Part shown: piece after piece, positions 48,468-50,294 of the stretch | How positions within the stretch are numbered: the stretch's first letter is position 1 | How the letters are laid out: every line of letters starts with the position of its first letter | Source of the DNA: Nonomuraea aurantiaca | GTDB taxonomy: Bacteria > Actinomycetota > Actinomycetes > Streptosporangiales > Streptosporangiaceae | Direction of reading: 5' to 3' | Assembly: GCF_020215705.1 (NCBI RefSeq) | Contig: NZ_JAIWNB010000027.1 | Location: 1-64,000, forward strand | DNA: 64,000 nt | Position numbers and translations under genes: made by a program | The notes under the pieces: model-generated | Database searches by the model: none | What the model was told of the DNA's origin: nothing | Seen by the model: the letters and a program-made list of their open reading frames with translations, nothing else

Positions 48468-49325
48468 TTACTTTTCCTGTTCGGTCATAGTGATGTCGCG
48501 CATCACGGGTGTGGCGGTGATGCTGCCCAGCAGGGACAGCGCCTGCTCGGAGGGGCTGCCGGGCTCGGCCTGATAGACGACGAGCTGCTGGCCGGGGGCA
48601 CTGTTGACGGTCAGGGCCTCGTAGCTGAGATCCAGCTCGCCGACCACCGGATGGCGCAACCGCTTGAACTCCGCCGTCTTGCCGCGTACGTCGTGGCGTG
48701 CCCACAGGCGGGCGAAGTCGGCGCTCTTGAGCGACAGCTCACCGACCAGGTCGGTCAGGCGGGGATCGTCCAGATCCGCGCCGGCGGTGGCCCGCAGGGA
48801 CGCGACGCAGTCCCGCGTGACCTTCGGCCAGTCGCGGTAGAAGTCACGGGCCTGCGGATCGAGGAACACCGTCCGGACCAGGCTGCGGTCGCCCAGCCAG
48901 CCGAACAGCGCCGCGCCGAGCGCGTTGCCGGCCAGTACGTCCATGTAGCGCCCGAGTACCAGAGCCGGGGTGTCCGGCCAGCGCTCCATCAGCCGGACCA
49001 GACCCGGACTGACCCGCTCGGGGCGCCCGGCCCGCCGCCTGCGCCGCGGCTCCGGTCGGGCCAGCTCGTGCAGGTGCGCGACGGCGTCCTCCTCCAGGAT
49101 CAGCGCGGTCGCCAGCGCCTCGAGCACCTGCGCCGACGGATGCTTGTCGCGGCCCTGCTCCAGGCGGATGTAGTAGTCAGTGCTGACGCCGGCCAGCATC
49201 GCGACCTCTTCCCGGCGCATCCCGGGCGTACGGCGGAGCCCGGCGGCGGGCATCCCGTGCGATTCGGGCCGGGCCAGCTCCCGTCGCGCTCGCAGGAACT
49301 CACCCAGACGATTGGCACTGTCCAT
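48468..49325 (-). CDS. XRE family regulator with MmyB-like ligand domain
   Basis: 285 residues. N-terminal helix-turn-helix: LGEFLRARRELARPESHGMP then RREEVAMLAGVSTDYYIRLE, and QGRDKHPSAQVLEALATALI. C-terminal MmyB-like PAS domain: DTPALVLGRYMDVLAGNALG, then DPRLTDLVGELSLKSADFAR and LRHPVVGELDLSYEALTVNS, as in lipid-binding actinobacterial regulators that control a neighbouring SDR. Upstream, CCTGG-AGA-CCAGG at 49346-49358 is a small dyad that could be its operator. Coupled to the SDR gene. Confidence 0.92.
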   Translation of the reverse strand: MDSANRLGEFLRARRELARPESHGMPAAGLRRTPGMRREEVAMLAGVSTDYYIRLEQGRDKHPSAQVLEALATALILEEDAVAHLHELARPEPRRRRRAGRPERVSPGLVRLMERWPDTPALVLGRYMDVLAGNALGAALFGWLGDRSLVRTVFLDPQARDFYRDWPKVTRDCVASLRATAGADLDDPRLTDLVGELSLKSADFARLWARHDVRGKTAEFKRLRHPVVGELDLSYEALTVNSAPGQQLVVYQAEPGSPSEQALSLLGSITATPVMRDITMTEQEK

Positions 49326-49419
49326 ATTTCGAGGTTAGGCGCCGGCCTGGAGACCAGGGTGGACCTGCCACTCCCAGGCTGTGTGGTGCGGAGCTGGGGT
49401 ACCTGGCTTGGAAAAGCCG

Positions 49420-49452
49420 TTCTAACTGTGCAACACTGTTGCACAGTTAGAA
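49420..49452. promoter_or_regulatory. 33-bp near-perfect palindrome immediately before a HicA-like gene
   Basis: TTCTAACTGTGCAACA (49420-49435) and TGTTGCACAGTTAGAA (49437-49452) are exact reverse complements around a single C. The right end is one base from ATG 49454. The size and symmetry fit an operator for a dimeric or tetrameric regulator, most simply the DNA-binding protein encoded at 49704. As RNA it would form a very stable hairpin touching the start codon. Local base composition is much lower in GC than the neighbourhood. Confidence 0.85.
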
Positions 49453-49453
49453 C

Positions 49454-49707
49454 ATGGTTGGGCGAGGAAGACATCAGCACAACGAGATCAACGCGGTGCT
49501 CAAGGCAATCCGCAAGATCAATAGCGCTCTCACCGTCGAGGAGGACCACAACGGGCATCGCTGGGGCTGGAGCACCTGCCAATGCGGAGAAAACCGTTCA
49601 CGATCAACTGCACGCCCCGGAATCCAGGTGTCCATGCCAAGCAGATCCGCCAATGGCTCACTCGGCACCTCGAGTGCAAAAGCGACGATCAAGAGGGGAC
49701 ATCATGA
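49454..49707 (+). pseudogene. HicA-like toxin-type gene, interrupted by a frameshift
   Basis: The frame from ATG 49454 gives INAVLKAIRKINSALTVEED, HNGHRWGWSTCQCGE, like the first half of small HicA-type proteins (GHRWG then CxC). The expected second half, TINCTPRNPGVHAKQIRQW, lies in another frame (codons from 49582, ATGCGG) and ends at TGA 49705-49707, overlapping the next ATG (ATGA). The break is near GAAAAC at 49589-49594 and needs a -1 shift. Either a mutation, a base-call error or programmed slippage explains it. HicA proteins are RNA-binding mRNA interferases. Confidence 0.6.
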
Positions 49708-50294
49708 CTAGCTGGGATTTCCAGGTCATGCTCAACCGCGAGCCGGACGCTGCCGAGTTCGACCGGCTCCACGAGGCGGGCATGGATGACTGCGCGCTGG
49801 TCGGGGGCGCACAGCCTTACTTCATGTGTGATCGTGAGGCGGACAGCCTGTTGGAGGCCATCATGTCCGTGTTCATCCAGATGAGCACGGTCGACAAGCT
49901 GTGGGCCGTTGGCGTGGGGCACGATGACGCGGTGACGCTCGGAGACGCGGCCAGGCGGCACGGTGGCCGCACGCAGGCCAGCTTCCGCCAGCTGGCGAGC
50001 GGGCAGCGCGGGCCCGGCGGCTTCCCGGCTCCGCTCATTGAGGCCGACAACGTCAGCGTCTACTCCTGGGCGGAGATCTCCGAGTGGCTACGCACCGAGC
50101 TGGGCGACGATGTCCCGCAGGCGAACGGGGACGTCATCCTGGCCGACGCCACAGTCAAGCTGGCCTGCCGGGCAAATTCCCTGCATCGCATGTCCCAGAT
50201 GCGGGACCTGCTGGAAGTGGCGTGCCGTCCCTTTCCGACCGAACCCAAGTCCGAACCCAGGTCTGAGGCCAAGTCCGAGGCGAGAGTCGCCTGA
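49704..50294 (+). CDS. Putative DNA-binding partner protein (antitoxin-like)
   Basis: 196 residues; GAGGGG lies upstream of ATG 49704. The middle has a likely helix-turn-helix: LGDAARRHGGRTQASFRQLA, SGQRGPGGFPAP, then VYSWAEISEWLRTELG. The N-terminal part (FQVMLNREPDAAEFDRLHEA, DREADSLLEAIMSVF) resembles proteins found next to HicA-like genes in actinomycetes. The C-terminal tail has a KSEPRSE/AKSEA repeat of charged residues. Its start overlaps the corrected stop of the preceding gene, as in toxin-antitoxin operons. Assignment as antitoxin or autorepressor is inference. Confidence 0.7.
   Translation: MTSWDFQVMLNREPDAAEFDRLHEAGMDDCALVGGAQPYFMCDREADSLLEAIMSVFIQMSTVDKLWAVGVGHDDAVTLGDAARRHGGRTQASFRQLASGQRGPGGFPAPLIEADNVSVYSWAEISEWLRTELGDDVPQANGDVILADATVKLACRANSLHRMSQMRDLLEVACRPFPTEPKSEPRSEAKSEARVA

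Follow-up and report, generated by a model that had tools for sequence, protein, structure and literature searches.

Toxin-first HicAB systems and the two-gene unit of Nonomuraea aurantiaca

HicAB systems in which the toxin gene comes first (Classes 3 and 4 of Gerdes 2024; E. coli hicAB, Y. pestis hicA3B3, and B. pseudomallei hicAB) combine a short first gene with a DNA-binding second gene and inverted repeats in the promoter, and the pair of genes described here has the same features, DNA binding of its second gene product and the promoter being predicted. In Y. pestis hicA3B3, HicB3 binds the main operator, which overlaps with the −10 box, and excess toxin has been reported to loosen the repression of hicAB (PMC11594946 and PMC10865869, as excerpted). 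By the outline given in the excerpt of PMC10865869, Class 3, in which HicB has a C-terminal HTH, comes closest to our pair. As for transcription, TAnnnT-type signals some 12 bp upstream of the start codon mark leaderless genes, which are frequent in Actinobacteria (PMC3160421, as excerpted); in M. tuberculosis, TANNNT is found 7 to 12 bp upstream of start sites, and leaderless messages predominate among the toxin-antitoxin pairs, with 32 of 37 (PMC3898074, as excerpted).

The pair lies in a 64,000-nucleotide stretch of the N. aurantiaca genome, called the window in the following. Gene 1 (49454 to 49711, forward strand) as read is an open reading frame of 85 amino acids and homologous to an 81-amino-acid protein of relatives. 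Gene 2 (49704 to 50294, forward strand) encodes 196 amino acids and is the proposed repressor and possible antitoxin; its domains are taken from the model of a relative, P0008. Homology to gene 1 follows the frame of the open reading frame as far as about 49597-49600, and from about 49588-49591 on it is found in another frame, towards the start of gene 2, which places a frame change at about 49590-49600. Since the second part of gene 1 is still conserved, this frame change is recent or an assembly error. The 14 other Nonomuraea genomes with gene 1 have open copies, most Nonomuraea copies contain the family residues GHRWG and STPRNPGNHA, and the palindrome of the window is perfect despite gene 1 being out of frame. 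In three related loci (L002, L003, and L004) gene 2 overlaps gene 1 by ATGA, and the reading frame of the window that carries the homology to the end of gene 1 joins gene 2 in the same manner.

The first-pass annotation had called gene 1 HicA-like, and this stands for the predicted order of the structural elements only: the AlphaFold2 model of a gene-1 homologue (pLDDT 75) has the order helix-strand-strand-strand-helix, which is shared with HicA. A Foldseek search with this model gave no significant match, and the best HicA, HicA3 (4p78), was found at rank 22 with an E value of 2.8. A search of 14 members of the gene-1 family against Pfam did not retrieve HicA, the best E value being 0.0056, to unrelated families; the six proteins scanned against Pfam and NCBIfam matched neither HicA nor HicB (for HicA: P0002, P0004, and P0006), and sequence searches of the PDB gave nothing useful. 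The model of P0008, the gene-2 homologue of Nonomuraea glycinis (pLDDT 84), predicts a ferredoxin-like domain at the N terminus, not the partial RNase H fold that HicB has, and a winged HTH at the C terminus. The best Foldseek matches of the N-terminal domain are PII-like (E value, 0.008; none below 0.001), and residues 15 to 134 of P0008, the homologue that was scanned, match phrog_2620, "excisionase and transcriptional regulator" (E value, 4.3e-14). Matches resembling gene 2 were present in 265 plasmid records. Membership of the pair in HicAB is disfavored by the family models (Pfam and NCBIfam) and by the fold search (Foldseek).

A homologous pair that bears these names is carried by Escherichia phage Cyrano, where it is annotated as HicA/HicB (CYRAN_51/50; phrog_5923/phrog_2620); in the excerpt of PMC9928086, the names have the standing of an annotation. 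The order of the two genes is the same as in our pair, the second gene is homologous over 99% of its length with an identity of 31.7%, and the first gene can be aligned with an identity of 28%.

A perfect palindrome at the start codon of gene 1

Directly upstream of gene 1 lies a perfect palindrome of 35 bp (49419 to 49453), listed, like its core and its two units described below, without a strand. Its arms (GTTCTAACTGTGCAACA and TGTTGCACAGTTAGAAC) are 17 bp long each, 100% complementary, and separated by one nucleotide, C49436. The first-pass annotation had described 33 bp with two 16-base arms around a C, ending one base before ATG 49454; the palindrome and its center are real, but the arms are one base longer, and the palindrome therefore touches the start codon, its last base (49453) abutting the ATG. 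That such a symmetry is rare and richer in A+T than its surroundings was borne out: with the composition of the window, 6.7e-4 perfect 17-bp arms with loops of 0 to 10 nt are expected per 64 kb, the longest arms in 60 first-order Markov sequences were 9 to 13 bp compared to the 17 bp observed, and the G+C content is 43% versus 71% for the whole window. The exact palindrome is present in a single copy in the whole genome of 11.85 Mb, and its 15-bp core, TGCAACACTGTTGCA (49429 to 49443), has no further copy with one or two mismatches in this genome. With three mismatches, 17 forward and 14 reverse matches were found, and a reversed-pattern control gave more (38 and 37). A single site with no copies at one or two mismatches points to a local autoregulator rather than to a regulon, and a wide regulon is disfavored. 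In the literature searched, no occurrence of the core 15-mer was found.

The palindrome goes along with the gene pair, as had been proposed from the window. To see whether it also occurs at unrelated loci, 98 genomes were searched for the 33-mer with up to three mismatches; it was found in 4 of them, namely, N. aurantiaca itself and three congeners, and in all four it precedes gene 1. Gene 1 was found in 11 named Nonomuraea records and is present in 15 of 54 Nonomuraea genomes searched, and the exact core, TGCAACANTGTTGCA, occurs at 14 places in 13 of the 54, all 13 of which have gene 1. The two other genomes with gene 1 (G046 and G010) have the core with one change, and a search for exact matches in the 39 genomes that lack gene 1 did not find the core in any of them. 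A hypergeometric calculation for the 13 exact-core genomes gives 9.5e-11, which is no true probability, since the genomes are related. This comparison supports the proposed operator and compact module. The exact core is otherwise found with gene 1, but one extra site exists among the 54 genomes: the 14th place (TGCAACATTGTTGCA) is located on contig 15 of G018 (L037, about 1501-1515) before a gene unrelated to the pair, which we take by eye to be an acetyltransferase.

We aligned 16 genomes (the window, 11 named, and 4 further ones), all of which have a related sequence in the same place, at the start codon. Fourteen of the 15 core positions are invariant, the other one being C in 14 genomes and T in 2. 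Invariant are also G49419-T49420, A49424, T49447-T49448, and A49452-C49453; the outer arms drift in parts while the core stays nearly unchanged, and by column counts, positions 49444 to 49446 are among the most variable ones of the right arm. A conserved box, CC(A/T)G(G/T)-N-(T/C)TGGA(A/T) (49402 to 49413, forward strand), precedes the palindrome by 5 bp in the 16 Nonomuraea genomes. It lies too far upstream to be the −35 element of the promoter proposed below and is possibly a second protein site.

Gene 2 was matched in 17 of the 54 Nonomuraea genomes, that is, in the 15 genomes with gene 1 and in G038 and G021, which seem to hold decaying copies. In G038 (L101), the frame of gene 2 is open, but gene 1 was recognized by eye as no more than a short stub; the core, TGCCACCCTGTTGCA, has two changes in its left half, and the right half and the CAnnnT before the ATG are kept. 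For G021, the search matched gene 2 in a C-terminal remnant only, and inspection by eye of the stretch read revealed no palindrome.

Within the right arm, the hexamer CACAGT (49442 to 49447, forward strand; −12 to −7 of the ATG) is our candidate for a −10 element. It has the form CAnnnT in 16 of 16 genomes, with A49443 and T49447 (−11 and −7 of the start codon) being invariant and the three bases between them variable, as in the TAnnnT promoters of leaderless actinobacterial genes. It differs from these in that the hexamer begins with C and in that the whole promoter would be one palindrome in this genome. A consensus scan for a promoter of the sigma-70 type found none. If the invariant A and T are those of a TAnnnT-type −10 element, gene 1 probably has a leaderless mRNA, and the palindrome extends from −35 to −1.

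An alternative is an RNA hairpin, as the first-pass annotation had considered: once transcribed, the palindrome may form a stem of 16 bp adjoining the AUG and limit translation of gene 1 or serve as a processing site. The predicted RNA fold of the region has a free energy of −35.4 kcal/mol (z score, −6.4), 87.1% of the cells of the alignment pair in the stem across the 16 genomes compared to at most 41.8% in slid controls, and arm pairing exceeds 498 of 500 column shuffles, as would be expected from a hairpin as well. The covariation score was reached by only 1 of 500 shuffles, with three pairs changed on both sides, but matched changes are equally explained by a dyad in the DNA. Furthermore, only 3 of 16 genomes keep the pair that adjoins the core (49428-49444), the pairs 49422-49450 and 49426-49446 are kept in 9 and 8 of 16, three further ones of the 17 pairs are broken in 1, 2, and 4 genomes, and the only Rfam match is a microRNA family far below the gathering score. 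The conserved −10-like bases would put the transcription start at the ATG, which would leave the palindrome untranscribed and makes the hairpin less likely. Overall, we regard it as improbable.

A DNA operator, which we prefer, might also belong to a regulator other than gene 2. A candidate is the divergent gene at 48468-49325, by eye presumably an XRE-type regulator, which starts 93 bp upstream of the palindrome; a protein encoded elsewhere in the genome may control the promoter as well, and the extra exact core before another gene in G018 fits such a regulator. The divergent gene is, however, not a constant neighbor, since by eye the upstream sequence in G018 (L002) is a gene on the same strand. 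Neither is the core found exactly in the 39 genomes without gene 1, nor does N. aurantiaca itself have extra copies below three mismatches. Control by another regulator is therefore unlikely, though less so than the hairpin.

The affiliation of phrog_2620 with integration and excision, together with the occurrence of relatives of the pair on phage and plasmid records, brings up the question of whether the palindrome has been left by a mobile element or serves recombination instead of regulation. However, the pair has a fixed address: in 13 of the 15 genomes with gene 1, it lies within 2 kb of one same gene, and in the other two (G019 and G002), the pair and this neighbor are on different contigs. 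The neighbor, which we take to be of the SPFH type by the look of the protein, is present in 54 of 54 genomes. The constant position suggests that the pair is an old resident of one site that was lost in many species. With the palindrome being at the start codon in all genomes aligned, a mobile-element footprint is very improbable, the least probable of the alternatives considered here.

GTTG-N8-CAAC units in wider relatives

Homologues of gene 1 also exist outside the genus, in at least 10 of the 395 other genomes sampled from the phylum and in at least 18 genomes outside Nonomuraea in a class sample of 394, both being lower bounds with 14 candidates scored per genome. Of 21 wider genomes tested, 20 have gene 2 next to gene 1; in two of these 20 (G297 and G408), only the N-terminal part of gene 2 was matched. 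In G575, the two genes are not neighbors.

We compared 22 upstream regions, deriving from 20 wider genomes, phage Cyrano, and a Streptomyces plasmid, with start codons picked by eye. The inverted repeat CAACA-N0-5-TGTTG, with one mismatch at most, is present in 5 of the 22 (L050, L051, L055, L062, and L063), whereas shuffles contain it at a rate of 1.5% per region (binomial, 1.9e-5); the best dyads of the same five loci are 37 to 39 bp long and end at the start codon. Only three of the 22 regions (L050, L051, and L063) have dyads with a p of ≤0.05 against shuffles of their own region; in L070, too, a dyad rich in G+C ends at the start. The common unit, GTTG-N8-CAAC, has 11 exact sites, which are spread over 8 of the 22 regions (mean of 0.04 and maximum of 1 in 500 shuffle sets), a count that is post hoc because the motif was framed after reading these regions and that is explained in part by the overlap of GTTGACA with the general −35 consensus. 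All other spacers from 0 to 15 gave exact matches in 0 to 2 loci each. With one mismatch allowed, the contrast is weaker, with 9 loci compared to a shuffle mean of 0.62 and a maximum of 4; of the other spacers, 1 then occurs in 6 loci and 11 in 4.

The palindrome of the window consists of two such units in mirrored orientation with one mismatch each, the left one being GTTC-N8-CAAC (49419 to 49434) and the right one, which touches the start codon, GTTG-N8-GAAC (49438 to 49453); they are 3 bp apart (16 + 3 + 16). In L050, L051, and L055, two exact units are 5 bp apart (16 + 5 + 16). L062, which comes from another family of the class, has two GTTG-N9-CAAC units (1460 to 1496; 37 bp in total) 1 nt before a GTG start, with the core CAACAGTGTTG, and L063 has one unit with a mismatch. 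In phage Cyrano, the motif is shared as GTTGACAGATGTCAAC, placed over the −35 element of a TTGACA-17-TAGAAT sequence, but there a single unit lies 31 nt before the start codon, whereas the window has two mirrored units in contact with it.

A pattern search for GTTG-N8-CAAC in 104 loci, including 33 wider ones, detected the exact unit in 17 of the 33, in other actinobacteria and in three enterobacterial phage or plasmid records. In 11 of the 33 it lies before gene 1; these include L079, L103, and L104, which are outside the set that defined the motif, with L103 and L104 resembling Cyrano, which helped define it. In a subgroup of six loci, the unit follows the gene-1 match and precedes gene 2, as if gene 2 alone were controlled (L065, L070, and L071, read directly; L067, L069, and L073, where the position was deduced from coordinates). 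By the pattern search, no exact unit lies elsewhere within the 17 loci. The exact unit is absent from the other 16 wider loci, L048, L049, L054, L056, L057, L060, L062, L063, L072, L074 to L078, L080, and L082, of which L057, L074 to L078, L080, and L082 were checked by the pattern search alone. In L054 and L056, neither with an exact unit, the gene-2 relatives were matched in the N-terminal domain only. A motif common to distant homologous pairs argues against an operator for another regulator, and since the motif-bearing relatives conserve the sequence GTTG-N8-CAAC, often as one short unit from which no strong hairpin would form, it argues against an RNA hairpin as well.

A model of autorepression by the gene-2 product

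In sum, we consider it likely that the palindrome is the operator of an autorepressed, toxin-antitoxin-like two-gene unit and is bound by the predicted winged-HTH product of gene 2. In our model, the palindrome would be the operator and, at once, the promoter of the unit that starts at 49454. The right operator unit contains the proposed −10 element and ends at the start codon, and the mRNA would therefore start at or next to the ATG. The gene-2 product, alone or together with the gene-1 protein, would bind the two mirrored units as two dimers or as a tetramer and, when bound, would block RNA polymerase and thereby repress its own operon. By analogy to hicAB, excess gene-1 protein would loosen the repression. 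Gene 1 may be the toxin and gene 2 the antitoxin. The observations behind this model are the palindrome, its conservation, its occurrence together with the gene pair, and the presence of the motif in some of the distant homologues.

As such, the element is of a known general kind, an autorepressed two-gene unit with a palindrome in its promoter, and its family is not named by the Pfam and NCBIfam scans made. More tentatively, and with somewhat less than even confidence, we propose that the pair represents a toxin-antitoxin-like family distinct from HicAB, with a HicA-like first protein and a second protein that joins a ferredoxin-like sensor to a winged HTH, common to actinobacteria and enterobacterial phage and plasmid records, with an operator code of its own, GTTG-N8-CAAC. 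The Nonomuraea promoter would then be built of two mirrored units that span −35 to −1 of a leaderless message, repressor and polymerase would compete for one and the same stretch of 35 bp, and release would be set either by the ferredoxin-like domain or by the gene-1 protein.

The analysis leads from an isolated palindrome to a putative operator code, GTTG-N8-CAAC, which can be tested in a two-gene family left unnamed by the Pfam and NCBIfam scans, and for the members that bear the unit, the code supplies DNA probes. It also suggests a route by which a leaderless toxin-antitoxin-like operon may be shut off, with a promoter that would be operator in its entirety.
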